The position numbers and the translations under genes were made by a program. This document shows, one piece after another, positions 2,082 through 32,398 of a stretch of DNA of 38,633 bases. Below the pieces are notes generated by a model. That model did not search any database. It was given only the letters and a program-made list of their open reading frames with translations, and had not been told where the DNA came from. This DNA is from Thiomicrospira sp. GTDB lineage: Bacteria > Pseudomonadota > Gammaproteobacteria > Thiomicrospirales > Thiomicrospiraceae. Location: positions 1-38,633 of the forward strand of contig JAUUDE010000058.1 of NCBI GenBank assembly GCA_030826915.1, given 5' to 3'. Numbering within the stretch: position 1 is the first letter of the stretch; each line of letters starts with the position of its first letter.

Positions 2082-2122
2082 TGTATAACTTTTTATTAAA
2101 GTATGTATATATACTGTATAAT
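2082..2122. promoter_or_regulatory. Phased TGTATA operator (LitR/CarH-like) in divergent promoter
   Basis: TGTATA occurs at 2082, 2104 and 2115, i.e. on one 11-bp register (22 bp then 11 bp). The last copy merges with a perfect -10 hexamer, TATAAT, at 2117-2122, which is positioned for transcription of the amine oxidase operon starting near 2129. GTATATATAC (2105-2114) is also a perfect palindrome. The overlap of the repeats with the -10 suggests repression. Binding by the regulator at 8150 is inference from the CarH 11-bp repeat rule. Confidence 0.65.
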
Positions 2123-2151
2123 TAATGCAAAGACTAATGAGTGTGGGTACA

Positions 2152-3477
2152 ATGGATCAGAAACAATACAGAAAAAAAATCGCCGTTGTTGGAAGTGGTA
2201 TTAGCGGAATCAGCGCAGCATGGTTTTTAAGCCAGCAACACGATGTAACATTGTTTGAAAAAAATTCAAAGTTGGGTGGCCATACAAATACCATTATTTT
2301 GGATTTAGAGGGTAAAAAACAGCCTGTAGACACCGGTTTTATTGTTTTCAATACGCCAAACTATCCAAATTTAACCGCCATGTTTAGGCATTTGCATGTC
2401 AAAACCCAAGATACGGAAATGAGTTTTTCGGTAACGGCGGATCAAGGCGCTTTAGAGTATTCAGGTAATAATTTAAACACTCTGTTTGCACAAAGAAGTA
2501 ACTTGTTGTCCTTAGCTCACTGGAAGATGATTGCCGAGATTCTAAGGTTTAACAAGCAAGCCAAAAAAGATTTAAAGCAAAATTTGTCCATTGAAACCAG
2601 CTTAGGTGACTATCTCGATCAACACGGATTTAGTGACCGAATGCGTGATTACTATCTATTGCCTATGGCCGCTGCCATTTGGTCATGTCCCGTTGAAACC
2701 ATGATGAAATTTCCAGTGGGGAGTTTTTTACAGTTTTTCGAAAACCATGGTTTACTCAATGTCGAAGATCGTCCTCAGTGGGAATCTGTGGTGAATGGTT
2801 CAGAACAGTATATTAAGAAAATTCTAGCGCTAAATGCATTTGAAGTTAAATTGGATAGTCAAGTTAGCCAAGTTAAAAAAAATGCCAATCGCTTGCAGGT
2901 TTTTACGCAGAAAGGTAAATCGTTTGAGTTTGATGATGTGGTGTTTGCGTCGCATGCCGATGAAACTTATCAGATGCTAGATGCTTCGCTCAAAGATGAG
3001 TTTGCATTGTTAGAGCATTTTAAATACCAAGAAAATATCGCTTATTTGCATCAAGATTTAAGTTTAATGCCAAAGCGTAAACTGGCTTGGGCTGCCTGGA
3101 ATTACTTGCGTGACACAAACAATAAAACTCACCCTGTTGCTGTCACTTATTGGATGAATTTGCTTCAGAACTTACCCGTTAAAACCCCATTGCTTGTTAC
3201 CCTTAATCCAAGTGCTCCGCCAAAAGAATCCACTGTCTTTAAACGCATAGTTTATCAACACCCTGTTTTTAATGAGGCGGCTATGTCTGCTCAAACCCAG
3301 TTAAGTTCCCTGCAGGGAAAGAACAACCTTTGGTTTTGTGGCAGTTACTTTGGTTATGGATTCCATGAGGATGGGTTAACCAGCTCGGTCAATTTGGCTA
3401 AACTTTGGAACTTGCCTCTTCCTTGGCATTCAGCACAAGAAAATCCTAGCAATGTTGAGGAGCAAGTTTGTGTCTAG
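2152..3477 (+). CDS. FAD-dependent amine oxidase-type oxidoreductase
   Basis: A flavoprotein of about 440 residues. The N-terminal Rossmann motif KIAVVGSGISGISAAW is followed by the acidic FLFEK-type strand end and GGHTNT, typical of the amine oxidase/phytoene desaturase superfamily. The C-terminus has the second FAD signature (FCGSYFGYGFHEDGLTSSV). An in-frame ATG exists at 2125, but the -10 box at 2117-2122 would place the transcript start after it, so ATG 2152 (MDQKQYRKK) or 2137 is more credible. It heads an operon with DUF1365 and a CFA-type methyltransferase. In Rhodobacter a comparable set under photo-oxidative control has been linked to unsaturated/furan fatty acids, so a lipid desaturation step is a reasonable but unproven role. 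Confidence 0.9.
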   Translation: MDQKQYRKKIAVVGSGISGISAAWFLSQQHDVTLFEKNSKLGGHTNTIILDLEGKKQPVDTGFIVFNTPNYPNLTAMFRHLHVKTQDTEMSFSVTADQGALEYSGNNLNTLFAQRSNLLSLAHWKMIAEILRFNKQAKKDLKQNLSIETSLGDYLDQHGFSDRMRDYYLLPMAAAIWSCPVETMMKFPVGSFLQFFENHGLLNVEDRPQWESVVNGSEQYIKKILALNAFEVKLDSQVSQVKKNANRLQVFTQKGKSFEFDDVVFASHADETYQMLDASLKDEFALLEHFKYQENIAYLHQDLSLMPKRKLAWAAWNYLRDTNNKTHPVAVTYWMNLLQNLPVKTPLLVTLNPSAPPKESTVFKRIVYQHPVFNEAAMSAQTQLSSLQGKNNLWFCGSYFGYGFHEDGLTSSVNLAKLWNLPLPWHSAQENPSNVEEQVCV

Positions 3478-4255
3478 CCAGCTGTACTTTGGGCAGGTGA
3501 TGCATCAACGATTTTTTCCGATGCAGTATCAGTTTCGTTATGGGGTGATGAGCTTACGTGTCGATATTGATGAGATTGAGCAAGAGAGCAAACATTTAAA
3601 GTGGCTGTCGCTTAATCGATTTAACTTGTTTAGCTTGCATTACAAAGACTATGGGGCTCGTCAAAAAAACCAGGCCTGGCGCATTTGGGCAAATAAGCTA
3701 TTAGCAGAATATGGTTTACCAGAACCGGCATACAAAATTGAATTGGTATGTTTTCCTCGTTTTATGAATATCACCTTTAATCCACTTGCCATGTGGTATG
3801 CCTACAACGAAGTGGGCGAGATGATTGCCATTATTGCGGAAGTGAGTAATACCTTTGGTCAATGGCACCACTATGTGCTCACCAATGCAGGAAAAAGTCT
3901 TGGCGATAAGGTCACCGCTGAAGCCGTTAAAGTTTTTCATGTTTCACCATTTATTGGCATGGATTGTCGATATCACTTTAAGTTTAGCCAGCCTACAGAA
4001 CACTACAAAATCGGTATTTATCAAACTGAAGACGGTAAATCGGTATTGAATTCTGTACAAGTCGGCAAGTCGCAAGAATTAACCAATAAGAGTTTGTTAA
4101 AGGCGGCCATAAAACACCCTTTTAATACACTCAAAGTCGTTATTATGATTCATTGGTGGGCGCTTAAAATCTGGTTAAAAGGTGGTAAGTTTCACAAAAC
4201 ACCAAAACAACTTGAAAACATTGATTACAGTCACACGGAGATGAAATTATGTTAA
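3470..4255 (+). CDS. DUF1365 family protein
   Basis: About 261 residues matching DUF1365: it starts SSQLYFGQVMHQRFFP, the usual ALYFGxVxHxRxxP opening, and contains CFPRFMNITFNPLAMWY and the EVSNTFGQWHHYVL block. I prefer GTG at 3470 over ATG 3452 because AGGAG (3458-3462) sits seven bases before it and the family begins at that point. It overlaps the end of the amine oxidase gene by 8 bp and overlaps the CFA-type gene by 7 bp, so translation of the three is probably coupled. The biochemical function is not established; its constant association with an amine oxidase and a CFA-type methyltransferase points to fatty-acyl chain modification. Confidence 0.9.
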   Translation: MSSQLYFGQVMHQRFFPMQYQFRYGVMSLRVDIDEIEQESKHLKWLSLNRFNLFSLHYKDYGARQKNQAWRIWANKLLAEYGLPEPAYKIELVCFPRFMNITFNPLAMWYAYNEVGEMIAIIAEVSNTFGQWHHYVLTNAGKSLGDKVTAEAVKVFHVSPFIGMDCRYHFKFSQPTEHYKIGIYQTEDGKSVLNSVQVGKSQELTNKSLLKAAIKHPFNTLKVVIMIHWWALKIWLKGGKFHKTPKQLENIDYSHTEMKLC

Positions 4256-5481
4256 GAGCAATCTCAAATAGTGGGTTTTATTTAATTGAAAAAATGATGA
4301 CACCTTCATTTGTGCAAAAGATGATTCTTAATTTGCCTTTTAAAGAACTGCATAAGGGAAGTTTAACACTGACATTGTTTGGAGAAATTCACCGCTTCGA
4401 AGGCGTTCAGCAAGGGCGACATGCCGATTTGATTTTACATAAACCTTTTAGGGCTTATTGGTTGATGAAAACACAAGGTGAGCTTGGGTTTGCCCAAGCT
4501 TATTTTGAAGGCGCGGTAGATACCAACTCGCTTTATAATTTGATGCATTTGGTTTATCAAAATCAGTCAGTTCTGGAAAGACTTTTATCGCATAAAAAAT
4601 TGAACTTATGGCATTTATGGCAACACAAAAAAAACCATAACTCTGTCGAGAACAGCCGCAAAAACATCTCATATCATTATGATTTAGGTAATGCTTTCTA
4701 CCAGGCCTGGTTAGATAAAACCATGTCTTATTCCAGTGGCTTATTTACCGATTCTAATCAGAGTTTGGCTCAAGCCCAAGACAATAAATACCAGCGTTTA
4801 CTAAATGAACTAGATTTACAAGGCGGCGAGACAATTTTAGAAATTGGTTGCGGTTGGGGTGGCTTAATGGAAGCCGCACTGCAAAAGGGCGCTAAAGTCA
4901 AAGGATTAACCCTGTCAACTGAACAGAGAGATTTTGCCGTACAACGTTTGCAAAAAAATGCTAATCCTGAGCAGTTTGAGGTGGCTTTGCAAGATTATCG
5001 CCACGAAACGCAACAATACGACCATATTGTCAGTATTGAAATGTTTGAGGCAGTGGGTAAAGAGTATTGGCAAACCTATTTTGAACAGCTTAACCAATGC
5101 TTAAAACCTAATGGTAAGGTGGCGCTGCAGGTCATTACCATTAATGACGAATTTGCCGCAGATTATCAATCGAGTGTGGATTTTATTCAAACCTATATTT
5201 TCCCAGGTGGTTTACTGCCCAGTTTGACACAATTAAGACAGTTGGCGACAGTACATGGCTTTAAAGTCGAAAATGTATATGGTTTTGGTGAGGATTACGC
5301 TAAAACTTGTCAGATTTGGAAGCAGGATTTTAATCAGCATAGCGAACAGTTGCTTGAACAGGGATACGATGCGGCATTTCAAAAAAAGTGGAACTACTAT
5401 TTAGATTACTGCACCGTTGGCTTTGAAACCAAACATACCAGTGTTGTGCAGTTAACACTAAGTAAACAAGACCAAATTTAG
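4249..5481 (+). CDS. Cyclopropane-fatty-acyl-phospholipid synthase-type SAM methyltransferase
   Basis: A 410-residue member of the CFA/mycolic-acid methyltransferase family. SYHYDLGNAFYQAWLDKTM near residue 140 is the family substrate-side motif. ILEIGCGWGGL near residue 198 is the SAM-binding motif I, and FIQTYIFPGG is the conserved later block. It acts on unsaturated acyl chains of membrane phospholipids, adding a methylene or methyl group. Because it is fused by overlap to DUF1365 and an amine oxidase, it may be the methyltransferase of a modified-fatty-acid pathway (as for ufaM-like genes) rather than a housekeeping Cfa; the sequence alone cannot separate these. GGAG lies about eight bases before ATG 4249. 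Confidence 0.92.
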   Translation: MLRAISNSGFYLIEKMMTPSFVQKMILNLPFKELHKGSLTLTLFGEIHRFEGVQQGRHADLILHKPFRAYWLMKTQGELGFAQAYFEGAVDTNSLYNLMHLVYQNQSVLERLLSHKKLNLWHLWQHKKNHNSVENSRKNISYHYDLGNAFYQAWLDKTMSYSSGLFTDSNQSLAQAQDNKYQRLLNELDLQGGETILEIGCGWGGLMEAALQKGAKVKGLTLSTEQRDFAVQRLQKNANPEQFEVALQDYRHETQQYDHIVSIEMFEAVGKEYWQTYFEQLNQCLKPNGKVALQVITINDEFAADYQSSVDFIQTYIFPGGLLPSLTQLRQLATVHGFKVENVYGFGEDYAKTCQIWKQDFNQHSEQLLEQGYDAAFQKKWNYYLDYCTVGFETKHTSVVQLTLSKQDQI

Positions 5482-5489
5482 GAGGTGTT

Positions 5490-6035
5490 ATGAAAACTAT
5501 TAAGTGGGCAGGCTTGCTGTTTAGTGTCTTATTTTTTTCAATGATTTCAGGGTGCAGTACGGTGAAAATTCAAGACTATAAAAATGAAGAGCCAAAACTC
5601 GATTTATTTACATACTTTAATGGTACAACTTATGCACAAGGGCAGTTTCAAGATCGTTCTGGGAAGGTTATGCGTCGTTTTAGTGTAGATATTACAGGAA
5701 CAATTGAAGGCAATACGCTGACCTTAGATGAACGCTTTGTTTATAATGACGGTGAAAAACAACAGCGTATTTGGAAAATTACCAAAAATGCTCAAGGCAA
5801 ATACACGGGAACAGCAGACGATGTGATTGGCGAAGCTAAAGGTGAATCGGCTGGTAATGCCCTAAATTGGCGCTACACACTTGACTTACCTTACAAAGAT
5901 AGCAGTATTCATGTGCAGTTTGACGACTGGATGTATTTACATACACAGGAAACTATGATGAATATCGCCAGTGTTTCTAAGTGGGGTTTTAATGTAGGGC
6001 AAGTGACGCTGTTTTTTAATAAAAAACCGTTGTAG
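5490..6035 (+). CDS. DUF3833 family lipoprotein
   Basis: A 181-residue protein with a lipoprotein signal (hydrophobic stretch then ISGC, cysteine at residue 22), so it is exported and lipid-anchored. The mature part matches DUF3833: LFTYFNGTTYAQGQFQDRSGK, then FVYNDGEKQQRIW and WRYTLDLPY, ending in a WMYL block. A perfect Shine-Dalgarno AGGAGGTG precedes the ATG, and only eight bases separate it from the CFA-type gene. The function is unknown. It is a standard member of the amine oxidase/DUF1365/CFA operon in gammaproteobacteria, so it may bind or deliver lipid in the envelope; that is inference. Confidence 0.9.
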   Translation: MKTIKWAGLLFSVLFFSMISGCSTVKIQDYKNEEPKLDLFTYFNGTTYAQGQFQDRSGKVMRRFSVDITGTIEGNTLTLDERFVYNDGEKQQRIWKITKNAQGKYTGTADDVIGEAKGESAGNALNWRYTLDLPYKDSSIHVQFDDWMYLHTQETMMNIASVSKWGFNVGQVTLFFNKKPL

Positions 6036-6040
6036 AAGAA

Positions 6041-6610
6041 ATGAAAATTACACGCCACTTTAAGACTTTGTGTGTGTTGTTCATGTTTACTTTTAGTACA
6101 CAGGGCTTAACACAGAACGCTCAAGAATCGTTTACCACAACAGCTGGTGTTGCAAAGCCAGAGCCACAAAGTTGGGTATGGCAAAAAGTTTCAGAGGGTA
6201 CGGCAACTTGGTTTTTTATGGATATTTACAATGCCACATTATTTTCAAACAAAGCGAAGTTACCGACAAACTTTTTGGCAGATAATGTGCCCTTAAAGTT
6301 AAAGCTGTGTTACTTAAAAGCAATTACGCCTGATATTTTTATTGAAGGAGCAAATGCTAAGTTGCCAGAAAAGTTATCGCCTGCGCTCAAGAATGAGGTA
6401 CAAAGTCTACATGATGCATACAAGGCCGTGAAACCAGGTGACTGTTATGAATTAGAATATACCCCCGTGCAGGGAACAGTGCTGAATTTAAACGGTAAAA
6501 CCTTGTTTAGAAGTCAAGTCCCAAATTTTAAACGGCTCTATTTTGGCATTTGGTTAGTGGGTAACCCATTATCTGATTCATTAAAACAGAGCTTGGTTCC
6601 GGAAAATTAA
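6041..6610 (+). CDS. Exported chalcone isomerase-like protein
   Basis: A 189-residue protein with an N-terminal signal peptide (about residues 1-24, ending near TQG). The C-terminal RLYFGIWLVGNPLSDSLKQSL matches the bacterial chalcone_isomerase-like family, whose members often bind fatty-acid-like ligands and are usually not true chalcone isomerases. Two cysteines, in KLCYLKA and GDCYELEY, could form a disulfide after export. It is five bases downstream of DUF3833 and one base before the photolyase start, so it is firmly inside the same operon. A periplasmic fatty-acid-binding role alongside the CFA-type enzyme is plausible but unproven. Confidence 0.85.
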   Translation: MKITRHFKTLCVLFMFTFSTQGLTQNAQESFTTTAGVAKPEPQSWVWQKVSEGTATWFFMDIYNATLFSNKAKLPTNFLADNVPLKLKLCYLKAITPDIFIEGANAKLPEKLSPALKNEVQSLHDAYKAVKPGDCYELEYTPVQGTVLNLNGKTLFRSQVPNFKRLYFGIWLVGNPLSDSLKQSLVPEN

Positions 6611-6611
6611 T

Positions 6612-8069
6612 ATGAATACCTTAGTTTGGATACAGCGTGAATTTAGAACCACCGCTTTGCCTGCTTTACAAGCGGCGTTAAGCGAAGCTGAAAAGTCATC
6701 AGGCAAAGTGATGGTGGCCTATTTTCATGATGAAAATCAGGTTATTGGTGAAGCAAATAATGTTTGGCTAAGTTACAGTTTACTTCAATTAAAAGCTGAT
6801 TTTACTGCCCTCGGTGGGCAGCTGTGTATGGTTGAAGGCGAGTTTTCAAGCATGCTTAATCAAGTGATTGCGGATTATCAAATTAGCAAGGTAGTTTATA
6901 GCTTTCAGGTTGGAACGCCATTTGAGCAAATGCAGCAACAGGCTTTAGAAGTCTGTAAACATAAAAAAGTAGTTTTACAGCCGTTTTATTCAGAGTTTTT
7001 AGTGCCTGCTGGTGAGTTTTTGAATAAGCAACACAAGCCTTACTTAGTTTTTACGCCTTTTTATAATGCATTAATGAAACAGTCACATTTAATTCAGCCA
7101 ATTGAAGAATCGGTTGGTGACATTGGGTTAACCTTAAAGCTCAAATTGAAAGACAAGCACCAGACTTGGTTGAGTTTGCCTATGAATTTGCAGAACTTGA
7201 TTGCCTTGCCTTGGGCAAAAAAAATCATGCAAAGCACACAAGTTGGAGAACAGCAAGCTTGGCACAAATTACAGCAGTTTTTGAAAGATGACTTAGAAAC
7301 TTATCAAACGGATCGAGATTTTCCAAGTTTACTTGCCACCAGTGGCTTGTCACCCTACTTAAACTTTGGTCAAATTAATTCAAGTGTTATTTATTATTAC
7401 TTGCAATCATTGATGGAGGAAGGTCATTTAAAGTCTGAATATGTCATGCCTTGGTTACGACAATTGGTTTGGAAAGAATTTGCTCGTCATTTATTAATGC
7501 ATTTTCCAGATACTGAAAATGCGCCTTTTCAGGCTAAATATCAATCCATGCATTGGCAAATGGATGAACAAATAATCCAGGCATGGCAGCAAGGTAAAAC
7601 AGGTATACCCATTATTGATGCAGGTATGCGAGAATTATGGCAAACCGGAAATATGCACAATCGCGTGCGTATGCTAGTTGCTTCATTTTTAACGAAGAAC
7701 TTAAACCAACATTGGTTAGCAGGCAAATCTTGGTTTGACAATACTTTATTTGATGCAGATCCTGCGAATAATGTCATGGGTTGGCAGTGGGTAGCTGGTT
7801 TTGGCGTAGATGCTGCACCCTATTACCGATTATTTAATCCTGTCACACAAAGTGTCAAATTTGATGGGAAGGGTGAATATTTAAGACAGTGGTTGCCAGA
7901 GTTAAAACACTTATCTAACAAAGCGATTCACAATCCTTGGGAGTATACTGAAGAGTGTAGGCTAAAAAGTATTGAACTTGGTAAAGATTACCCTCAGCCA
8001 TTAGTAGATTTAAAACAAAGTAGAGCACAACATCTAGAGCGTGTCGCATTGATGAAAACTGCAAGTTAA
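6612..8069 (+). CDS. phrB: Class I deoxyribodipyrimidine (CPD) photolyase
   Basis: A 485-residue photolyase with an N-terminal alpha/beta antenna domain (starting LVWIQREFRTTALPAL) and a C-terminal FAD domain. Visible signatures: GKTGIPIIDAGMRELWQTG around residue 326, HNRVRMLVASFLTK, DADPANNVMGWQW with W391 and W393 (equivalents of E. coli W382 and W384), and PYYRLFNPVTQSVKFD. The length fits class I enzymes (about 470-500). It repairs cyclobutane pyrimidine dimers using blue light. It is the last gene of the lipid operon starting at 2152, one base after the chalcone-isomerase-like gene, so repair and membrane remodelling would be expressed together. A cryptochrome-like signalling role cannot be excluded, but the substrate-binding residues look intact. 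Confidence 0.93.
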   Translation: MNTLVWIQREFRTTALPALQAALSEAEKSSGKVMVAYFHDENQVIGEANNVWLSYSLLQLKADFTALGGQLCMVEGEFSSMLNQVIADYQISKVVYSFQVGTPFEQMQQQALEVCKHKKVVLQPFYSEFLVPAGEFLNKQHKPYLVFTPFYNALMKQSHLIQPIEESVGDIGLTLKLKLKDKHQTWLSLPMNLQNLIALPWAKKIMQSTQVGEQQAWHKLQQFLKDDLETYQTDRDFPSLLATSGLSPYLNFGQINSSVIYYYLQSLMEEGHLKSEYVMPWLRQLVWKEFARHLLMHFPDTENAPFQAKYQSMHWQMDEQIIQAWQQGKTGIPIIDAGMRELWQTGNMHNRVRMLVASFLTKNLNQHWLAGKSWFDNTLFDADPANNVMGWQWVAGFGVDAAPYYRLFNPVTQSVKFDGKGEYLRQWLPELKHLSNKAIHNPWEYTEECRLKSIELGKDYPQPLVDLKQSRAQHLERVALMKTAS

Positions 8070-8149
8070 TTGCATAAGTATAAGTTTTTGTCTAACATAC
8101 GCATAACTTATTGAGATCTTAAAGCTAAATAATAACGAATGATAATATT

Positions 8150-8980
8150 ATGACCACCAACGAAGCCCTTTACCCAATTAGAGAAGTCTCCAGTTTAACG
8201 GGTGTAAACTCAATCACTCTTCGTGCATGGGAAAGACGCTACGGCTTGATTGAACCTGTCAGAACAGATGGTGGTCATCGACTTTATACCTTAGAGCACA
8301 TTGATACTATCAAAGCGGCCGTTAAAATGACTAAAGAGGGTATACCCATTAGTCAGGTAAAGGCCAGAATAAGTCAGATTAAACTCAATAAGAATGACGA
8401 AGTCATTACTGGTGACTACGATTATCAATCCCGTTTGATGGATGCTTTAGAGACTCTTGATTTAGAAAGCGTTAACCAAGAACTTGATCAAGTATTTATG
8501 AATATCGGTGATACATGGCTGTTTAAATTACTGTTTGAAGTGAATCAGTCAGTGTCGGTTAATTCAAATCCAGCGATTTTCACCTTCTGGGAATCAGAAG
8601 TACTGCCACGACTATATACTCGTTTGCGTTTCGCTCTACGTTATATGGCTTTACATGCTTGTAAAAAAATATGGGTTCAGGCTGATTATTCAAACTCTTC
8701 CCAAGTTGGACTGTTAATTGCCGTTAATGTCTTGGCAAAAAACGGTTACTACCCAATAATCAATCACAAGCTAGGCACACAAAATCAGTCTTTATTTGAA
8801 TGCATGCAACAGACACAATGCCACGCACTAGCAGTTGTAGATGAAAAGCAATTGTTTGATGAAACACGCTGGGCTTCATGGACAGATAGTCATCCAAGTC
8901 TTGAGTTTCATTACTTTACTGAGCATGCCGAGGAATTAGCTATTGCCAAAAAAATACAAGTAACGGCTTATTCTATTTAA
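8150..8980 (+). CDS. LitR/CarH-like MerR-family regulator without cobalamin-ligand motif (class II type)
   Basis: A 276-residue regulator. Residues 7-75 form a MerR winged helix: YPIREVSSLTGVNSITLRAW, ERRYGLIEPVRT, GGHRLY. The C-terminal half resembles the helical plus Rossmann parts of CarH/LitR. Where cobalamin-binding members have DxHxxG it reads ADYSNSSQVG, so the His ligand is lost. This fits the class II LitR proteins of Pseudomonas putida, which do not use B12 and work with a short LOV partner; here a short LOV gene is the immediate convergent neighbour, 26 bp away. I infer that it represses the 11-bp-repeat promoters in this window. Its own upstream region has GTATAAGTT (from 8078) but no clear phased pair. 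Confidence 0.88.
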   Translation: MTTNEALYPIREVSSLTGVNSITLRAWERRYGLIEPVRTDGGHRLYTLEHIDTIKAAVKMTKEGIPISQVKARISQIKLNKNDEVITGDYDYQSRLMDALETLDLESVNQELDQVFMNIGDTWLFKLLFEVNQSVSVNSNPAIFTFWESEVLPRLYTRLRFALRYMALHACKKIWVQADYSNSSQVGLLIAVNVLAKNGYYPIINHKLGTQNQSLFECMQQTQCHALAVVDEKQLFDETRWASWTDSHPSLEFHYFTEHAEELAIAKKIQVTAYSI

Positions 8981-9006
8981 TCGGCACTTATCTAGTGAAA
9001 AGGGCT

Positions 9007-9465
9007 TCAAGAATTTTGTTTTTTTAATTCTGTTTTTAATTTTGCAATTTCTTCATTGGCTTTGTCCAGCGCTTCTTGCAAAACTACTTCTTCAGTAACG
9101 TCTTTTTGAATGCCAATATAGTAGGTAAGTTGATCAATTTCATCAAAATAAGGCGTAACACTTAACTCATTCCAAAAGACGCTACCATCTTTGCGATAGT
9201 TTTTTAAAATTGTACGAACTGGATCTGCTCCATCAATTGCTTTACGAATGATTTTTATGGACTGCTGCTCGGTATCTTTGCCCTGCAGAAAACGACAATC
9301 TTGATAAAGAATTTCTTCAGATTTATAACCTGTTAAGCGTTCAAATGCTGGGTTAACATAAATTAAAATGGTGTCGTGGCCTTCTTTTTCAGCGACCACA
9401 ATGCCTTCTTGTGCATTTTCAACCAGTTGTAGCAAAAGGTTTGTTCTTAATTTTGGATCTTTCAT
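9007..9465 (-). CDS. Short LOV blue-light photoreceptor
   Basis: A 152-residue stand-alone LOV domain with no output domain. YVNPAFERLTGY and YQDCRFLQG give the FMN-adduct cysteine at residue 57. NYRKDGSVFWNELSVTP and YYIGIQKDVT complete the LOV core. The last 30 residues (ALDKANEEIAKLKTEL) are a charged coiled-coil helix, the usual dimerisation/J-alpha extension. It closely resembles, from memory, the short LOV proteins of P. putida. With no effector of its own it must signal through a partner, and the LitR-like regulator encoded convergently next door is the obvious candidate. Its upstream region (9466-9600) has no phased TGTATA repeats, so it may be made constitutively. Confidence 0.95.
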   Translation of the reverse strand: MKDPKLRTNLLLQLVENAQEGIVVAEKEGHDTILIYVNPAFERLTGYKSEEILYQDCRFLQGKDTEQQSIKIIRKAIDGADPVRTILKNYRKDGSVFWNELSVTPYFDEIDQLTYYIGIQKDVTEEVVLQEALDKANEEIAKLKTELKKQNS

Positions 9466-9617
9466 AACACCATAACATTCTGTAAATTTTACTCATTATC
9501 TCTTTAATTACACAAGGGTCAAGAGCTAAGAAGTAAATTTCATTAAATTGATATATTTGTATCCATAGTTTTATTTAAATGGCGCTATTGAGCAGATAAA
9601 TTCAACTTGGTTTTGAT

Positions 9618-10592
9618 TTAACGATATGCTGTTGTTTTGGAGCGTAGAGCTAAATCAGCTGGGTATGGATGAAAAAACACTTGAGTAGCCAAGTAGTCCG
9701 ATCCATAATGTTTTAAAAATTGTTCTAGTATTTTGATAACGGCTATTAAAGGCACAATATCGTTCATGAATTCAGCTACGGTTTCATGGTAATGCGCTTT
9801 TTCATCTTGAGTAATGTCGTGTTTGAAGTACCCGTATATATGATCGAGTGTATTTTTAACTTGCCCTTTTTTTGAACGGTAGGCCAGCAGTGCAAACATT
9901 TTTTGCTCATAGCCTAGTAAACTCTCGGTTAGGTTGTGCTTGCGGGTTGTTGCGACCAAGGCACCCAGTTCACGGTAAATTTCTTCATTTTTAGATAGAA
10001 AAAGATATTTGTGATCTCTATGAAAGGCTTGAAATTGGCCAAGCGTTGGGTCGCTTGCTAAAAACTCTCTCCACCGTGCTGATGTAAAAGCTTGTACCAT
10101 AAAATTTTCACGCAGCCATGCATCGTTTAAACGACCTTCTTCTTCAATGGCTAGGTGCGGCATCGCTTTTTTTAAGTCACCTGTAAACAGGCCTGCTTGC
10201 ATGGGGTCTTTTGAACCATGCCATTCACCACTTGGTTGGTACACTTTAATGCGTTCCAATCCACAGCTAGGAGAGCGCGATTTTACAACTGCACCATCCA
10301 TATTTTTATGGGTTAGTTTAGGGATGATTTTATCATTATAGGCTTGTAGACCCTCTGTGTAATCATTGTTTGATTTTGGACCAATGACCCTTACTTCTGT
10401 TCCAATGCCAACTAATCTAATGGTTTCACGGGGAGTACCCAAAACAGCCGCTTCTGGACAAAAAGGGTAAAAGTCAGCGTATTTAGCCAAGTGATGATTT
10501 ACAAAGTCATCCTGAGCGTGACCACCATTATAACGGCATTCAGTCCCTCTTAAGCAGTCCGAAACTGCAATTCTAATTCTCGGGAATTCCAT
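9618..10592 (-). CDS. DUF523 + DUF1722 (YbgA-like) two-domain protein
   Basis: About 324 residues. The N-terminal DUF523 domain (about 1-155) carries conserved cysteines in SDCLRGTECRYNGGH, FCPEAAVLGTPRE and SRSPSCGLERI, possibly a metal or cluster site. The C-terminal DUF1722/YbgA domain (about 190-310) has FQAFHRDHKYLFLS and YGYFKHDI. I use ATG 10592 because GGAGGG lies just before it; an upstream in-frame ATG at 10613 has no such site. The function is unknown. In E. coli ybgA lies directly upstream of phrB, and this fusion is often next to photolyase genes, which agrees with the light-repair setting here. It shares a divergent intergenic region with the exported peroxiredoxin. Confidence 0.9.
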   Translation of the reverse strand: MEFPRIRIAVSDCLRGTECRYNGGHAQDDFVNHHLAKYADFYPFCPEAAVLGTPRETIRLVGIGTEVRVIGPKSNNDYTEGLQAYNDKIIPKLTHKNMDGAVVKSRSPSCGLERIKVYQPSGEWHGSKDPMQAGLFTGDLKKAMPHLAIEEEGRLNDAWLRENFMVQAFTSARWREFLASDPTLGQFQAFHRDHKYLFLSKNEEIYRELGALVATTRKHNLTESLLGYEQKMFALLAYRSKKGQVKNTLDHIYGYFKHDITQDEKAHYHETVAEFMNDIVPLIAVIKILEQFLKHYGSDYLATQVFFHPYPADLALRSKTTAYR

Positions 10593-10640
10593 ATACCCTC
10601 CTTGAAACAGCATTAATTTAGAATTGTTGTATTAATTTCA

Positions 10641-10667
10641 CGTACATATTGTACAATAGTTATACAT
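10641..10667. promoter_or_regulatory. Phased operator between DUF523/DUF1722 and peroxiredoxin
   Basis: Read on the minus strand, TGTATA (plus 10661-10666) and TGTACA (plus 10650-10655) are exactly 11 bp apart, and a further GTAC follows 9 bp on. GTACA-TAT-TGTAC (10642-10654) is also an inverted repeat. The region lies between divergent genes, so it could serve both. Assignment to the LitR-like regulator is inference. Confidence 0.6.
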
Positions 10668-10724
10668 CTTAGTTCATTTGTTTATCCCTATTTTAAACAA
10701 AGTATCCCTAAAGGATCCCATATT

Positions 10725-11270
10725 ATGAAAAAATTATTTATTCCTATTTGTATTAGCTTAATGTCGATATTTGTTTTGAGTTCGCAAGCTTATGCAAAAG
10801 AGTTAAAAACTGGCGATATGGCTCCTAGCTTTGAGTTATTCAATCAGCACAAGGAAAAGATCTCATTAATTAGCCAAAGAGGGCATTGGGTGGTACTTTA
10901 TTTTTACCCAAAAAACGATACTCCAGGTTGTACAACAGAGGCATGCAGTTTTAGAGATAACATAAACAAGTTAATTGCCCAGAAGGCAATAATTTTAGGG
11001 GTGTCCGTTGATGATACTTTGAGCCATAAAGCTTTTTCTGAAAAATACAAATTACCGTTTTCACTTTTAGCTGATGTGGACGGACAAGTAGCAAAAAGTT
11101 ATGGTGCTATTTTGGACTTACAAGTCATTAAATTTGCTAAACGGCACAGCTTTATTATTGACCCAGAAGGCAGAATAGCCAAAGTCTACAGAGATGTAAA
11201 TCCACGTGAACATGTAAGAATTGTGATGTCAGATTTAAAAAAATTACAAAAGCAAAATAACACGTTCTAG
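10725..11270 (+). CDS. Exported Bcp/PrxQ-type peroxiredoxin
   Basis: A 181-residue thiol peroxidase. Residues 1-24 are a Sec signal peptide ending AYA-KEL, which is unusual for Bcp and puts the enzyme in the periplasm. The active site NDTPGCTTEACSFRD supplies the peroxidatic Cys69 and, five residues on, resolving Cys74 (CxxxxC, the BCP/PrxQ arrangement). The C-terminal half (KRHSFIIDPEGRIAKVYR) is nearly the same as that of the cytosolic paralogue at 38048. It would reduce peroxides, including lipid peroxides, made by light-excited photosensitisers. It follows a phased operator and is 63 bp upstream of ferrochelatase, so the two may be one transcript. Confidence 0.93.
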   Translation: MKKLFIPICISLMSIFVLSSQAYAKELKTGDMAPSFELFNQHKEKISLISQRGHWVVLYFYPKNDTPGCTTEACSFRDNINKLIAQKAIILGVSVDDTLSHKAFSEKYKLPFSLLADVDGQVAKSYGAILDLQVIKFAKRHSFIIDPEGRIAKVYRDVNPREHVRIVMSDLKKLQKQNNTF

Positions 11271-11333
11271 AGTTTTGTAATTTTTAGAAAAATTATCAAA
11301 TAAAACAAAAAGATAAAGAGGGTCGGAATCAAT

Positions 11334-12437
11334 ATGCACTATCAATCTTATACTCAATATCAACATGGTGATGCTTCAAAAATTGGCGTATTAGTCACCA
11401 ATTTAGGTACGCCAGATGCTCCCACAAAAGAAGCACTAAGGCCCTATCTTAAAGAGTTTTTATCCGACCCTCGTGTTGTGGAACCCCCACCGGCAAGATG
11501 GTTGTGGCGTTTGATTTTAAATGGGATTATCTTAAACACAAGGCCCGCTAAGTCTGCAGAAGCTTATAAAACGGTATGGGATTCAGAAGGCCCAGGTGCG
11601 CCTTTGCTCAATATTTCACAAAGACAAGTGGATGCAATTGCAGAGCATGTTAAACCTCAACTAAACACCGAAGTGGAATTTGAACTTGGTATGCGATATG
11701 GCAATCCCTCCATTGCATCAGCGCTTCAAAAATTGCAGGCAAAAGGCTGTCAAAAAATATTAGTCTTACCGCTTTATCCTCAATATGCTGGGGCGACAAC
11801 GGCTTCTACTTTTGATGCAGTAAATGCCGAATTGCTCAATTGGCGCTGGGTTCCCGAAATGCGCACCATTAATCAATATTATCGTCATCCTGGTTATATT
11901 GATGCCTTGGCAAATTCTATTACAGAATATCAAGCAAAACACGGCAAGCCAGATTTACTCGTTATGTCTTATCATGGGATTCCACAACGTTATTGGGATA
12001 ACGGCGATTCTTACCCATGTAATTGTCATTTAACTTCACGTTTGGTGGCAGAAAAACTGGGTTTAAATAAAGACCAATATAAGGTCACTTTTCAATCGCG
12101 TTTTGGTAAAGAGCCTTGGGTGCAGCCCTATACAGATGAAACCATGATGGCTTTGCCTAAACAGGGCGTTAAAAATATTCAGGTCATTTGTCCAGGGTTT
12201 TCAGCTGATTGCCTAGAAACCATTGAGGAAATCGGTGAAGAAAACCGTGAATATTTTGAAGAAGCCGGTGGCGAACATTTTGGCTATATTAAATGCCTAA
12301 ATGACCGATCTGATCATACCCAAGCACTGGGCGATTTAGTCTTGCAGCACTTGCAGGGTTGGGATGTGATTGTAGATAAAGAAGACTTGGCTAAAGTCAA
12401 AGCCAATGCAAAAGCAATGGGCGCACATAACGCTTAG
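11334..12437 (+). CDS. hemH: Ferrochelatase
   Basis: A 367-residue protoporphyrin ferrochelatase inserting Fe2+ into protoporphyrin IX, the last step of heme synthesis. Seen: GVLVTNLGTPDAPT at the start, the conserved LKEFLSDPRVVE, GMRYGNPSI, LPLYPQYAGATTAST, the catalytic histidine in MSYHGIPQRYWDNGD, and CPGFSADCLETIEEIGEENR. It lies in a photoprotection gene set behind an exported peroxiredoxin. Protoporphyrin IX is a strong singlet-oxygen generator, so inducing hemH in light would drain the sensitiser; this logic is inference. The end overlaps no neighbour when the next gene is started at 12448. Confidence 0.97.
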   Translation: MHYQSYTQYQHGDASKIGVLVTNLGTPDAPTKEALRPYLKEFLSDPRVVEPPPARWLWRLILNGIILNTRPAKSAEAYKTVWDSEGPGAPLLNISQRQVDAIAEHVKPQLNTEVEFELGMRYGNPSIASALQKLQAKGCQKILVLPLYPQYAGATTASTFDAVNAELLNWRWVPEMRTINQYYRHPGYIDALANSITEYQAKHGKPDLLVMSYHGIPQRYWDNGDSYPCNCHLTSRLVAEKLGLNKDQYKVTFQSRFGKEPWVQPYTDETMMALPKQGVKNIQVICPGFSADCLETIEEIGEENREYFEEAGGEHFGYIKCLNDRSDHTQALGDLVLQHLQGWDVIVDKEDLAKVKANAKAMGAHNA

Positions 12438-12447
12438 TGAGAATGTG

Positions 12448-12690: not shown

Positions 12691-12767
12691 TTAACCGCTT
12701 TAACTTAATTTGAAACCTATGCTGCATCTTTTTAAAGTTATCTATAAATCAACAAGTGAGTAACTTA

Positions 12768-13864: not shown

Positions 13865-13907
13865 TACCAATTCATTTGTATAATTGTTAGGTTAATAAAA
13901 ATATATA

Positions 13908-13936: not shown

Positions 13937-13971
13937 AACCCGTAATCTAAATTTTTAGGTTCGGTACTTCT

Positions 13972-14073: not shown

Positions 14074-14088
14074 GGCTTTGGAGTTGTT

Positions 14089-21242: not shown

Positions 21243-21279
21243 TATACATCATTGAAATTTAGTGTATCATTTATGTAGA
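21243..21279. promoter_or_regulatory. Operator-like repeats between trpB and TIGR01777 gene
   Basis: On the plus strand TGTATC (21263-21268) and TGTAGA (21274-21279) are 11 bp apart; on the minus strand TGTATA (plus 21243-21248) sits in TGTATAAGTT, the same word seen at other sites. The region is divergent, so it may serve the trpB unit, the epimerase, or both. It is weaker than the sites at 2104 or 27825. Confidence 0.45.
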
Positions 21280-22268: not shown

Positions 22269-23213
22269 ATGGATAAAAGTTCACTCTGTTTAAGCGCGAT
22301 AAAGGCAACCCGTGATGGTCTTGTGATTACTGAATACAGAGAAGGTAAGAGTTTAATCTCTTATGTTAACCCCGCGTTTGAAGAATTGACAGGTTATCCT
22401 ATTGATGAGTGTTTGGGGCGTAATTGTAACTTTTTACAGAGGGAGGATAGAGAACAACCTGAAATCGAACAAATTCGAGAGGCGATAAAATTAGGTCAAT
22501 CCGTGTTAGTTACTTTAAGAAATTATAAAAAAGATGGGACTTTATTTTGGAATGAACTCTCAATTTCACCAATCAAAAATGAATTTGACGAAATTACCCA
22601 TTTTGTAGGGATTCAAAAAGATGTCACAAAGCGTGTTAATCTTGAAGAGCAAATTAAATTTACCAATCTTAAGTTAGAAGAAGCGAATAAAAATTTACAG
22701 CACAATAACAAAATAGATCATTTGACTGGACTTTATAATCGTAGGGCGATGGATGAAGAGCTTTCGGATTTTATCAACATTGCTAGACGTGAAAAAAGTA
22801 CATTGGCTTTCTACTCTATTGATATTGATAACTTTAAGTTAGTTAATGATGAATATGGGCATGAGGTAGGAGATACTTGTATAAAGTATGTTGCAGCGCA
22901 ACTATTAAACGTATTTAAACGTGCACAAGACTTGGTTTTGCGTTATGGCGGTGAAGAATTTTTAGTTGTGTCTTATGGTGGGTGCAATCAACAGTTTGAT
23001 TGTTTAGCGGACATGGCATTAAAAAATATCAGTGGTAAGGAAGTGAGTATTCCAGAATTAAACCTTAAGCTTCGTTTAACCGTGAGTATTGGCGTTTACA
23101 GTGTTACTGTGACCAATGATTTCAACCTCAAAAAAGCGATTCAAAATGCCGATTCTGCTATGTATCAAGCAAAGCAAGAAGGTAAAAATCAGGTTGCTTA
23201 TTTTTCACAATAG
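22269..23213 (+). CDS. LOV-GGDEF blue-light diguanylate cyclase
   Basis: A 314-residue two-domain protein. The LOV domain (about 8-122) has YVNPAFEELTGY and GRNCNFLQ with adduct Cys53, plus NYKKDGTLFWNELSISP and HFVGIQKDVT. A short coiled-coil linker (LEEQIKFTNLKLEEANKNLQ) leads to a GGDEF domain from about residue 145. The active site is GGEEF (227-231), so catalysis is expected. RAQD (218-221) is exactly five residues before it, a proper I-site for c-di-GMP feedback. It would convert blue light into c-di-GMP and so alter motility or biofilm. The LOV domain strongly resembles the short LOV protein at 9007. No phased operator was seen upstream. Confidence 0.95.
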   Translation: MDKSSLCLSAIKATRDGLVITEYREGKSLISYVNPAFEELTGYPIDECLGRNCNFLQREDREQPEIEQIREAIKLGQSVLVTLRNYKKDGTLFWNELSISPIKNEFDEITHFVGIQKDVTKRVNLEEQIKFTNLKLEEANKNLQHNNKIDHLTGLYNRRAMDEELSDFINIARREKSTLAFYSIDIDNFKLVNDEYGHEVGDTCIKYVAAQLLNVFKRAQDLVLRYGGEEFLVVSYGGCNQQFDCLADMALKNISGKEVSIPELNLKLRLTVSIGVYSVTVTNDFNLKKAIQNADSAMYQAKQEGKNQVAYFSQ

Positions 23214-23298: not shown

Positions 23299-24840
23299 TT
23301 AAAGTTTTTTTCTAATAAAATCAACACGATGTTGTATTGCCTCACGTTTTACATTGTCTATATTAGCAAGGTGTTTTATTTGTAGAGCCATTCTTGGATG
23401 CTGGTTAAATTCTTGTTCGTGTTTGAGTAAAAAAGCCCAGTATAAAGTGGTAAATGGACAGGCTTGCTCTCCAATAGAGTCTTCTGGTTTGTATTGGCAT
23501 TTGCTGCAGTATGGACTCATCTTTTGAATGTATTTTCCTGTGGCAACATAAGGTTTACTGGCCATAAATCCGCCATCTGCATACTGACTCATGCCTAATA
23601 CATTGGGTAGCTCAACCCATTCAACCGCATCCACGTACATTGCTAGATACCATTCATGAACTTCAATAGGGTTGGTTTCCCAGAGTTGAGCAAACAGGCC
23701 TGTTATCATGAGACGTTGAATATGATGGCCATATCCATGCTCTAAAACCTGTGAAATAGATTGCTGTAAACAGCGCATATCGGTTTTACCTGTCCAATAA
23801 AAAGAGGGCAAATTTTGTTGTGCGTCTAGATGGTTCCAGGTTTTCCAATCTGGCATTGAATGCCAGTAGAGTCCACGTACAAATTCTCGCCAGCCTAAAA
23901 TTTGGCGAATAAAACCCTCAACCGCTTCAATAGGTGCAAGGCCATCATGATAAGCCTGCTCAGCAGCCTGTATGACTTCCATTGGAGAGATTAATTTCAG
24001 ATTTAAGCTACTTGATAATAATGAGTGATAAAGAAAAGGTTCATCAAACCACATAGCATCTTGGTATTGCCCAAACAAGGCTAGGCGATTTTTAATAAAA
24101 TCTTCTAAGGCTTGTTGTGCATCTTTATGGGTAACAGGCCAATTAAAACTTGCAAGGCTACCTGAATGATTAGCAAATAAGTCAGAAACTATTTCTAAGA
24201 CGTCTTGAGTAATTTTATCTTTTGAAAAGACTGGCGATTTAACAATAAAACCAGGGCCTTTTTTGCCAAAACTACCCCGGTTTTTAGCATCAAAGTTCCA
24301 TTTTTCACCGCAAGGTTTTCCATTCTCCATTAAGATGCCTGTACGTTTTCTTAAATGGCGAACCCAGTATTCCATTACCGGTTTTTTACGTTGCGACATC
24401 CACTCACTAAACTCACCAGGCTGGCTAATAAAGTGACGATCAGCCAATACATTGAGTTTATGTTTAAATTTATTTGCCGTTGTTTTTAGCTGTTTGAGCA
24501 CTCGGTACTCTCCAGGTAAAACTACTTTAATGTCAGAAGCTAGATGCGATGATAGAAAGCAGCTCAGTGCTTCAGATAAATTGGTTGGTTTTTCAACGCC
24601 TTTTGTTGATAACTTTTCATAATGCACTTGCCAGCCTTTGTTTTGTAATGTTTCTGCAAAATGGCGCATAGCACTTAAAAACAAGGCGATACGCTGAGGG
24701 TGTGATTTTACATGCGTGCTTTCATCAATTACTTCAGCCATCCAAATCAAATCTTGGTTTGCATCAAACTCATCAAATAAAGCGGAGTTTAAATTAAGCT
24801 GATCTCCCAATACAATGCAAAGATTACGAATTTTTTTCAT
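23299..24840 (-). CDS. FeS-type prokaryotic (6-4) photolyase (cryptochrome/photolyase-related)
   Basis: 513 residues of the DPRP/FeS-BCP class: it starts [20 protein letters not shown] and contains [32 protein letters not shown] and [23 protein letters not shown]. Cysteines 357, 445, 448 and 461 have the same spacing (88, 3, 13) as the [4Fe-4S] ligands reported for Agrobacterium PhrB (350, 438, 441, 454), so a cluster is expected. Family members repair (6-4) photoproducts and use a 6,7-dimethyl-8-ribityllumazine antenna. Its ATG overlaps the DUF2256 stop in ATGA, so it is translationally coupled, third in the unit cryptochrome-DUF2256-FeS photolyase. Confidence 0.95.
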
Positions 24841-25007
24841 GGCGTTTCCTTATTTTGGCGACGAAATTGTTTTGCAGCACGTTGGCATTTTTCACTGCAA
24901 TAAACTACGTTTCCCCAATCTCTTTCCCACTTTTTACGCCATACAAAAGGGCGTTGGCAAATAGGGCATATTTTGCTTGGAAGATGTTGTTTTTTAATAC
25001 CTTTCAT
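24837..25007 (-). CDS. DUF2256 small zinc-finger-like protein
   Basis: A 56-residue protein read directly from the DNA: it begins [20 protein letters not shown], continues [21 protein letters not shown], and ends QNKETP. The CxxC plus CxxxC cysteines form a probable zinc site, and the whole pattern is DUF2256. It starts 28 bp after the cryptochrome stop and its TGA overlaps the FeS photolyase start (ATGA). DUF2256 genes habitually lie beside photolyase genes, so a role as a photolyase accessory is likely but not demonstrated. Confidence 0.93.
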
Positions 25008-26598: not shown

Positions 26599-27054
26599 GG
26601 GGTAATCTAAATAGTTACGCTGTATTGTCTCTGGTTACTGTAATTTAGTTAACTGCAAACAGAGTAAATTGATGTTTAAAGTACTTTTAATTAATTGTAC
26701 TTTATCTGTACCTAAGTTATACAAAATATTCATAGTATGACACTTAGCTTTTTTAATGCCAATTTAATATTGACTGCTGCTTAAAGCTCTAATGGTGCAG
26801 TTCAAGTCGTTTTTAGCTTTAAAGAAATTTAGTGTTTTACTCTTGCTCTATAAGCTGATTAAGTAAAATTTATATTAAGGAGTGGGAATGGTTAATTAGC
26901 CATGTATATGCTCTATTTCTTAGGAATATTTCATTATTCAAGACAGAATTAGTTGTGTTGACGTTTAACAAAGTCTATCTAGATTTAATGTGCCAATGAA
27001 GTTCGCAGTTAGAAAGAGTTGCTGTTTTATATAACTAAATAGTTCATTCACTCA
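26599..27054. other. 456-bp gene-free region with the cryptochrome operon promoter
   Basis: No credible gene was seen on either strand. The left part (26690-26725) carries the triple phased operator listed separately; the putative leader of the cryptochrome gene is about 80-100 nt. The rest (26730-27054) is AT-rich and unremarkable, lying between the 3' end of the secreted unknown gene and the cryptochrome promoter. No terminator with a GC stem was found. Confidence 0.6.
26696..26723 (-). promoter_or_regulatory. Triple 11-bp-phased operator of cryptochrome operon
   Basis: On the minus strand TGTATA, GGTACA and AGTACA start exactly 11 bp apart (plus coordinates 26718-26723, 26707-26712, 26696-26701). 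Three consecutive 11-bp direct repeats with TACA/TATA cores match the arrangement described for Thermus CarH operators. It lies about 100 bp upstream of the cryptochrome start codon at 26598. Confidence 0.65.
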
Positions 27055-27813: not shown

Positions 27814-27863
27814 TGTATTATATATGTATAATTTTAGTTATGCTTATGTATAGAAATTGTATT
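27814..27863 (+). promoter_or_regulatory. Five-unit 11-bp-phased operator upstream of DUF3429
   Basis: Units start at 27814 (TGTATT), 27825 (TGTATA), 27836 (AGTTAT, degenerate), 27847 (TGTATA) and 27858 (TGTATT): exact 11-bp steps over 50 bp. TGTATAAT at 27825-27832 includes a perfect -10 hexamer TATAAT (27827-27832). The array ends just before the Shine-Dalgarno AAGGAG (27867-27872). This is the clearest operator in the window. Confidence 0.7.
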
Positions 27864-30961: not shown

Positions 30962-30967
30962 TTTAAT

Positions 30968-32314
30968 TTAGTTAATCAGAGTCTGTGTGTATTGTTTAAA
31001 CAATTGCTGTACATTTACCTGTGCTTTTAGTTTGGCTGCGAGTAAATACAGTCCGCCCAATTTCCGATGAAAAAACAGGGCATCTGCTGGTGGTGTGTGC
31101 CAGTAATCTTTTTCCATGCTTAATGCCATACCCTTGTCTTTGATTCGAGTGGCTAAATCCGTATTAGCAAAGTCGTATTCACCATTGAAACGTAATGGTT
31201 CGCAAGCTTGCATGAACAAATCAATTACGGCTGCTTTTTGTTGCGGCAAGATGGTGTTACTAAAAAAACCAATTTTTTTAGCAGCCATTTCCACCTTGTC
31301 TAACTGCCCATGTTGTGCGGCGTACATGAGTTGCAAATAGCCCTCAGAGATGCTGTCGCTGTAATGACGAGTAGCACCAAAATCCAGTAAAATAATACAA
31401 TTAGTTTTGGGGCTAAATTGATAGTTTGCAAAGTTTGGATCTGTTTGTACTAGTTTAAAAATAAACATTTCTTTAAACAGTAAATTAAACAATTCACTCA
31501 TAATAAAGTTACGTTCATTTTGGCAACTATTTATACGCGATTCAATTGCGACACCTTCTACAAAATCCATAGCCAATATAGATTCACTGCTTAGGTCATC
31601 ATGTACTTTAGGAATTGTGAAGTTGGAGTTTTCAGCCAAATATTCACGGTATTGTTTAAGACAAGTCGCTTCATAGTGGTAATCGGCCTCAGCGTGTAAT
31701 TGTAATTTGGCTTCTTCTAAAATAGGGTTTAAGTCCACTGACTTAGGAATCAATCGGGACAGTTTTAAGAGCGTTGCCAAATTATCAACGTCACTATCAA
31801 TACTGGTTTTAATGCCAGGGTATTGGATTTTTAAGGCTAAATGACGGCCATCCACTGTGTGCGCTTCATGTACCTGTCCAATGGAGGCAGCAGCTACAGG
31901 ATAGAAAGAAAATTGGCTAAACTTACTTTGCCAATCTGTTCCCCAGGTTTGTTCTAATTCTTCAATCAATTGATTTAGAGGCATTGACTTAGCTTCTGAA
32001 CGTAACTTAGCAAGAATACTCGATAATTCCTCTGGGATTAAATCGCCTGCATCCATTGATAACAGCTGCCCAACTTTCATTGCGGCACCGCGCAGTTGTG
32101 AGAGGTGTTCGGCCAGTCGTTTCGCATTTTGTGTGGTAAGTAATAGATTTTTAGAGTTGGGTTTTTGACCTTGTACTAACTGCTTGCTGCCTTGAGCTAG
32201 CATACTTGTTGCCACGCCACCAACTAACTTTCCCATTTTAGTTAAACGGCTTATTCGACCTCTTGGAATTTTGGCGGATTCAATTTCTAGATTATTTATT
32301 TTGGTAGGCGTCAT
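30968..32314 (-). CDS. ABC1/UbiB-family atypical kinase (ADCK-like)
   Basis: About 448 residues. RGAAMKVGQLLSMD is the KxGQ motif special to the ABC1/COQ8 group; PVAAASIGQVHEAH is the Ala-rich nucleotide loop, and HLALKIQYPG carries the ATP lysine. TDPNFANYQF and LLDFGATRHYS are the catalytic and metal loops. Such proteins support ubiquinone/isoprenoid-lipid metabolism. It lacks the C-terminal membrane helices of canonical UbiB, so it is a second, ADCK-like type. ATG 32314 is preferred to TTG 32332. It diverges from the SDR at 32434 across an operator-like region. Confidence 0.92.
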   Translation of the reverse strand: MTPTKINNLEIESAKIPRGRISRLTKMGKLVGGVATSMLAQGSKQLVQGQKPNSKNLLLTTQNAKRLAEHLSQLRGAAMKVGQLLSMDAGDLIPEELSSILAKLRSEAKSMPLNQLIEELEQTWGTDWQSKFSQFSFYPVAAASIGQVHEAHTVDGRHLALKIQYPGIKTSIDSDVDNLATLLKLSRLIPKSVDLNPILEEAKLQLHAEADYHYEATCLKQYREYLAENSNFTIPKVHDDLSSESILAMDFVEGVAIESRINSCQNERNFIMSELFNLLFKEMFIFKLVQTDPNFANYQFSPKTNCIILLDFGATRHYSDSISEGYLQLMYAAQHGQLDKVEMAAKKIGFFSNTILPQQKAAVIDLFMQACEPLRFNGEYDFANTDLATRIKDKGMALSMEKDYWHTPPADALFFHRKLGGLYLLAAKLKAQVNVQQLFKQYTQTLIN

Positions 32315-32351
32315 AAATTCGCTCGTTAACAATCATTAGTTTACAAAATAT

Positions 32352-32398
32352 TGTACACTATTGTATAAGTTATATAAATATTGAATAGAATGTGTATA
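32352..32398. promoter_or_regulatory. Operator-like repeats between ABC1-kinase and SDR genes
   Basis: TGTACA (32352-32357), TGTATA (32362-32367) in the word TTGTATAAGTT, a degenerate TATAAA at 32373 (11 bp on), and another TGTATA at 32393. Spacing is 10 then 11 bp, less regular than the other sites. Its divergent position would allow control of both genes. Confidence 0.5.

Follow-up and report, generated by a model that had tools for sequence, protein, structure and literature searches.

Which regulator, if any, reads the TGTATA and TGTACA words that recur at 11 bp steps in a Thiomicrospira contig rich in photoprotection genes, and what would it control? The window analysed here is the whole of contig JAUUDE010000058.1 (38,633 nucleotides; C41), one of 99 contigs of a 1.79-Mb draft genome that is 86% complete; it makes up 2.2% of that genome, and Pfam and NCBIfam annotation of its proteins shows that photoprotection genes clustered together occupy much of its length. 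The original prediction described eight intergenic regions with such repeats and proposed that they form one light regulon, with a CarH/LitR-type regulator encoded at 8150. We conclude that the 11-bp repeats are very probably the operators of this regulator, a class II LitR that would repress in the dark and be relieved by a light-activated short LOV protein encoded beside it.

All eight regions lie where they had been placed and all have the 11-bp register, although not every copy is exact; the repeat unit can be written TGTAYA-R-N-T-W-T. Single TGTAYA words show no enrichment across the whole window (43 observed, 41.7 expected), and pairs at 11 bp (a 5-bp gap) are enriched, with four observed, one of them intragenic, against 0.10 expected. 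The words are denser in noncoding than in coding DNA (4.9/kb and 0.46/kb). Four of the five exact 11-bp pairs of the genome fall inside the window (binomial 1e-6), as do 11 of the 50 one-mismatch pairs (binomial 8e-9), a few pairs being entered on both strands in these genome-wide lists. The exact off-cluster pair at C95:45773 was set aside as chance because it lies 22 bp past a cysteinyl-tRNA synthetase gene and the next gene, 388 bp off, faces it; the site at C80:9869 is within a thioesterase-like gene.

A scan of the kind proposed in the original prediction, with a position matrix, an 11-bp spacing term and shuffled controls, was run with the window held out. For a matrix built from 27 sites in related genomes (loci L036-L055; six sites near hemH and palindromic pairs were excluded), the best 11-bp tandem scores range from 11.5 to 24.1 in the eight regions and do not exceed 3.8 in 12 other segments scored. 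At a score of at least 10 there are nine intergenic tandem matches in the window, compared with a mean of 0.088 and a maximum of two in 500 dinucleotide shuffles, and the 38.6-kb window holds 11 matches in all compared with two in 277 kb of the same genome.

The first candidate operator, called like the others on sequence and scored with the held-out matrix, spans 2082-2120 (score 20.6) with exact copies at 2082, 2104 and 2115, and separates a divergent SDR1 gene from the FADox-DUF1365-CFA-DUF3833-chalcone-like-phrB(-LitR) genes. The minus-strand operator at 10650-10666 (23.2), an exact pair at 10650 and 10661, lies between a RudS-type gene and the divergent Prx1-hemH-DUF2389-lipocalin-hypothetical genes, and that at 13908-13933 (minus strand), upstream of alpha/beta-hydrolase-PNPOx-cupin, joins an exact copy at 13919 to a one-mismatch partner at 13908 (16.6 at 11 bp) and to a third copy 9 bp away at 13928. 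Exact copies at 16715 and 16726 form a plus-strand operator (16715-16731; 24.1) upstream of a DUF2189 membrane protein gene. The weakest region, 21263-21279 (plus strand; 11.5), pairs TGTATC at 21263 with TGTAGA at 21274, each one base off, between the divergent TrpB-CIA30-cryptochrome FAD domain-hypothetical and SDR-DUF1731 genes. Upstream of the leftward cryptochrome/photolyase-DUF2256-DPRP genes, the minus-strand operator at 26696-26723 (16.9) has an exact copy at 26718, a one-mismatch partner at 26707 and a further copy, one base off, at 26696; in genome G010 (L196), two exact pairs lie in the region where the Cry2 homologue starts. The plus-strand array at 27814-27863 (18.4), between the divergent hypothetical gene hyp27055 and DUF3429-exonuclease-DUF2237, has exact copies at 27825 and 27847, one-mismatch partners at 27814 and 27858 and an unmatched register at 27836, and the DUF3429 gene of G010 (L197) has an exact pair 28 bp upstream. 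The last operator (32352-32398, plus strand), between divergent ABC1 kinase and SDR2 genes, contains an exact 10-bp pair at 32352 and 32362 and, beside it, an 11-bp pair one base off at 32382 and 32393 that had been overlooked; it scores 14.3 at 11 bp. Two in-gene pairs had also been overlooked, at 21872 (exact) and 30997 (one base off). The former (21872-21888, minus strand) is inside the SDR-DUF1731 gene and is either chance or an internal site.

The same spacing dominates in relatives of the Thiomicrorhabdus group. Across 20 loci, 25 noncoding pairs in the same orientation are spaced at 11 bp, where a TGTACA-TGTACA pair may count twice, and every other step between 6 and 20 has at most one; six further 11-bp pairs fell in DNA called coding by a rough open reading frame (ORF) mask. 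Lesser peaks, at 21-23 and at 31-34, agree with a double and a triple 11-bp step. In the comparison of promoters the tandem recurs before the same genes. In these counts, which partly draw on the training set, a tandem scoring at least 12 is found upstream of operon heads (FADox 16/17, SDR1 14/17, RudS 8/9, SDR-DUF1731 7/8, hydrolase 5/6 and DUF2189 2/2) and not upstream of the internal operon genes DUF1365 (0/17), CFA (0/17), DUF3833 (0/16) and PNPOx (0/8); the figures are 4/20 for LitR, 2/19 for phrB and 1/19 for LOV. Other sites in relatives are beside integrase, NMT1, LysR, MCP and histidine-kinase genes; no target is assigned to them, and they may be chance.

The repeats also accompany the regulator. 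Among 37 family genomes, with LitR called at E<=1e-20 and short LOV at an identity of at least 68%, 23 have both genes, one (G017) has LitR only and none has LOV only, so that short LOV is present in 23/24 genomes with LitR and 0/13 without. At least one exact 11-bp pair is present in 23/24 and 5/13 of these respectively, with means of 3.8 and 0.7 per genome (counts sum both strands and take TGTACA-TGTACA twice, as in G011 and G029, both LitR-negative, among others). G017, the only genome with LitR and no LOV, is also the only LitR-positive genome without an exact pair. A LOV match at least 50% identical is present in the examined stretch of 62 of the 80 named LitR loci.

The repeats could in principle be nothing more than the -10 boxes (TGTATAAT) of common promoters, AT-rich and duplicated by chance, since some copies read TGTATAAT at possible -10 positions and the intergenic DNA is AT-rich. 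However, 11 bp far exceeds the other spacings, intergenic shuffles expect the 0.088 matches given above, no tandem stands before the internal DUF1365, CFA and DUF3833 genes or before the second hemH copy discussed below (0/5), and pairs are rarer in genomes without LitR, all of which makes this explanation very unlikely. A sigma-70 promoter scan of positions 1-17000 found no excess (48 found, 49.3 expected).

Still less likely is that the cluster is an extracytoplasmic function (ECF) sigma/ChrR singlet-oxygen regulon as in Vibrio and Shewanella, with the repeats incidental. Papers on such regulons (PMC4336711; PMC5241685) name photolyase, cyclopropane and ferrochelatase, and there is a ChrR-like cupin at 15832; this cupin nonetheless scores 50.6 bits, under the ChrR threshold of 124.5, and a search for exact forms of TGATC-N16-20-CGTA found no intergenic match in the window, the sole match being inside the LOV gene.

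The assignment of the 8150 product to the LitR/CarH superfamily is upheld. The protein (8150-8980, plus strand) has a MerR helix-turn-helix (Pfam MerR_1, 4e-16), a helical bundle and a Rossmann-like domain, and Thermus CarH/LitR proteins match it best in both sequence and fold; the closest named LitR matches are from Thiomicrorhabdus and relatives, with a top identity of 54% in a ranking from which records very close to the window may be missing. The AlphaFold model has a mean predicted local distance difference test score of 85.4 and a predicted template modelling score of 0.64. Among PDB entries it matches complete CarH structures best (5c8e, E 5.5e-12), with full-length template modelling scores of just 0.43-0.51; against the cobalamin-binding part of CarH alone the scores are 0.45-0.51 by query length, with root mean square deviations near 4-5. 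None of 21 aligned LitR sequences has a Pfam B12 domain listed at E<=5 or a histidine at the column aligned to the CarH ligand histidine (one has a histidine one column earlier), and the adenosylcobalamin (AdoCbl)-binding domain with DxHxxG that marks class I CarH is not found in the sequences of this group. PmlR2 of Pseudomonas mendocina is reported to have weak B12-binding_2 similarity (PMC9758184); similarity of this type was not detected in the 21 sequences. This supports the view that LitR 8150 lacks a functional B12-binding domain and hence belongs to class II. The comparison with Thermus CarH in the original prediction therefore stands for the CarH-like fold and the 11-bp repeats, and not for the B12 domain, which is not recognisable. 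Light sensing by the protein itself as a B12-dependent Thermus-type CarH, to which the top matches and the 11-bp direct repeats of CarH operators (PMC9304148) might point, is the least likely explanation and is rejected on the protein sequences, as none of the 21 has a Pfam B12 domain match or a histidine at the ligand column and a LOV receptor is the almost constant companion of LitR.

The likely light sensor of the regulon, and a predicted anti-repressor, is the short LOV blue-light receptor encoded convergently to LitR at 9007-9465 on the minus strand (PAS_9, 2.5e-20). Residues 8-146 of its 152 align with 7a6p, a 'putative sensory box protein' (4.7e-52) that we take to be a Pseudomonas short LOV, and its reactive cysteine is within YQDCRFLQG, such that LitR here has the adjacent cysteine-bearing LOV partner expected of a class II LitR/short-LOV pair. 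The region upstream of the LOV gene scores -13.6. In the four closest loci (L036-L039) the LOV proteins are 91-95% identical and the neighbouring LitR proteins 49-55%, which is unusual for presumed partners. The short LOV match at G035:C1:176612-177055 carries one internal TAG; this genome still has LitR and sites.

In P. mendocina a class II LitR and a short LOV are a dark repressor and a light-activated anti-repressor (PMC9758184), and its PmlR2/PmSB-LOV pair shares with the present one a MerR helix-turn-helix without a usable B12 domain, an adjacent short LOV with a reactive cysteine and TGTACA/TGTATA half-sites; the light-induced genes of P. mendocina include photolyase, SDR, FAD oxidoreductase and ufaM, kinds of gene that are predicted targets here. 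The P. mendocina LOV gene is not light-induced (PMC9758184), to which the mostly operator-free LOV genes described above are a parallel. The two systems differ in that the photolyase and ufaM genes of P. mendocina adjoin a second LitR (pmlR1) elsewhere, whereas here a single LitR, LOV and the genes are clustered, and in that the predicted targets here include ovoA, hemH and peroxiredoxin. The operators differ too: the published class II form is T(G/A)TACA-N12-TGTA(C/T)A, with sites 18 bp apart (PMC9758184), and the Thiomicrospira repeats are direct and 11 bp apart. The window has one one-mismatch match to the published form (0.43 expected), and in the 37 family genomes it is no commoner than a reversed-pattern control allows, so the 18-bp spacing was rejected as the operator here; as this genome has no copy of the published site, the direct repeat at 11 bp is best viewed as a variant. 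P. putida PplR1-3 are likewise class II LitR proteins with light-inducible phrB, ufaM and cryB, and differ in operator spacing and in having LitR in three copies (via PMC9758184). In Thermus, Bacillus and myxobacteria, CarH, a protein of similar fold, reads operators that are likewise direct repeats in tandem at 11 bp; the differences are AdoCbl as the light sensor, carotenoid genes as targets and a core TnnACA (PMC9304148), which matches the TGTACA copies and not the TGTATA ones. A class II LitR thus appears to use the CarH spacing here.

Both spacings are found in Pseudomonadaceae. In a word search of 33 loci, 15 pairs had the 11-bp and 8 the 18-bp spacing; three of the latter have no palindromic half, and all three are divergent. 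With the matrix, direct pairs numbered 7 at 11 bp, 3 at 18 bp and 7 at 28 bp, and divergent pairs 3 at 11 bp and 5 at 18 bp. In 11 of the 33 loci an 11-bp direct repeat precedes the LitR match by about 135 bp. TGTACA pairs 28 bp apart are also found about 1.1 kb before LitR (L082:8894, L093:8899, L107:8896). In G061, from another family, an exact divergent 18-bp site (G061:C21:2797-2820) is just upstream of a LitR-like match (G061:C21:2312-2722), and the 18-bp form is therefore not confined to Pseudomonas.

By analogy with the Pseudomonas work for repression, anti-repression and light response, and with CarH for tandem binding by an oligomer, LitR would in the dark occupy two or more TGTAYA-R-N-T-W-T sites every 11 bp, probably as a CarH-like oligomer; at the promoters of the cluster operons the sites would all lie on the same side of the helix, and RNA polymerase would be blocked. 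Blue light would form a cysteine-flavin adduct in the short LOV, which would then bind LitR and free the promoters. The genes induced in the cluster would be those for photolyases/cryptochromes, lipid modification (putatively of CFA/UfaM type, by neighbourhood), peroxiredoxin, hemH and the RudS-type tRNA desulfidase, and outside it ovoA and DUF2805. A broader proposal, for which we consider the case evenly balanced, is that a B12-free, LOV-controlled LitR reads CarH-like 11-bp repeats, that blue light thereby switches photoprotection including ovoA and hemH, and that the 11-bp repeat is ancestral with the divergent 18-bp form added; the repeat that precedes LitR in Pseudomonadaceae speaks for this ancestry, and the G061 site weighs against it. 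If correct, a switch recently described in Pseudomonas would be carried to chemolithotrophic sulfur oxidisers, with an operator that departs from the published consensus and fits the CarH grammar.

A single regulon acting through the 11-bp repeats is well supported by the window statistics, the promoters of relatives and the co-occurrence with the regulator; a point that the original prediction missed is that the regulon is not only local, as off-cluster sites are also present at ovoA and DUF2805 and, in relatives, at hemH. OvoA, the synthase of the antioxidant ovothiol (TIGR04344, 671.9 bits, cut-off 400), is the most recurrent new off-cluster target, and in this genome (contig C20) its ORF is preceded at 25 bp by three units at 11-bp steps. 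Using 200-bp promoters and a tandem score of at least 10, ovoA has a site in 15/21 LitR-positive genomes and 0/6 labelled LitR-negative (G013, G027, G031 and G032 of the family; G061 and G066 of other families); 27 of 30 loci were used, a fragment in G002 and two distant partial matches being dropped. G023 has an exact site just outside the tested 200 bp. For hemH the same test on 30 loci, with additional matches lacking loci excluded, gave 16/22 and 0/8, and three low-scoring LitR-positive hemH genes follow a Prx1 gene that carries the site. The second hemH copy has no operator in 5/5 genomes having two copies. One such ferrochelatase (G000:C18:23458-24567; L276) is 76% identical to the cluster copy, and G007, G009, G014 and G015 have the same arrangement. 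DUF2805 is present in 16/58 genomes searched, all with both LitR and LOV (one match is partial), and has a tandem scoring at least 11.6 in some of them, including this genome (contig C69, three units). Ovothiol synthesis is reported to be light-dependent in a diatom (PMC7551349); no bacterial light control of ovothiol appeared among the titles and abstract openings listed in literature searches, a search of open-licence papers found none on Thiomicrospira together with LitR, and no literature on DUF2805 or DUF2256 was found. The blue-light programme would extend past the cluster to ovothiol and heme synthesis, and the outcome is a testable list of predicted light-controlled genes that includes ovoA.

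Several observations weigh against reading the repeats as LitR operators. Two of the 11 window matches are inside genes, other spacings also reach a score of 10 in the window (two matches at 8 bp, four at 9, two at 10, three at 12 and one at 15), and the 9-bp pair at 13903-13933 (20.1) and the 10-bp pair at 32352 (20.8) outscore the 11-bp pairs there. The gap upstream of LitR itself scores 3.8. When six spacings other than 11 bp are scored in relatives, the best of them reaches 12 before FADox in 7/17 and before SDR-DUF1731 in 5/8 cases, and the published 18-bp site has no exact match in this genome. Scores are below 10 in 6/21 ovoA and 6/22 hemH promoters of LitR-positive genomes, and DUF2805 has a site in just 7/16. 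Several LitR-negative genomes are incomplete drafts in which the absence of LitR is uncertain; G002, in which LitR was not found, has island genes with sites, and G061, counted as LitR-negative for ovoA, does contain a weaker match to LitR (9e-18). The p-values are too small and only indicative, because the genomes are related and base composition is unmatched.

Gene starts were taken from ORFs or tblastn throughout. The cluster encodes SDR, FAD oxidoreductase, DUF1365, a CFA-type methyltransferase, DUF3833, a chalcone-isomerase-like protein, photolyase, LitR and the short LOV; a RudS-type protein (2-thiouracil desulfurase plus DUF1722, named following PMC11417400), peroxiredoxin, ferrochelatase, lipocalin, hydrolase, PNPOx, cupin and DUF2189; TrpB, CIA30, a cryptochrome FAD domain, a LOV-GGDEF protein, DPRP and DUF2256; and a second cryptochrome/photolyase, DUF3429, ABC1 kinase and others. 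The LOV-GGDEF protein (22269-23213, plus strand; motifs GRNCNFLQ and GGEEF), a second predicted blue-light receptor, is likely to be a blue-light diguanylate cyclase; by matrix score no 11-bp operator was found directly upstream of its gene. TrpB (20009-21217, minus strand; TIGR00263, 633 bits, cut-off 392) is the first gene of a cluster operon with CIA30 and the cryptochrome FAD domain, and the small DUF2256 ORF (56 aa; 24837-25007, minus strand) sits between DPRP and the second cryptochrome.

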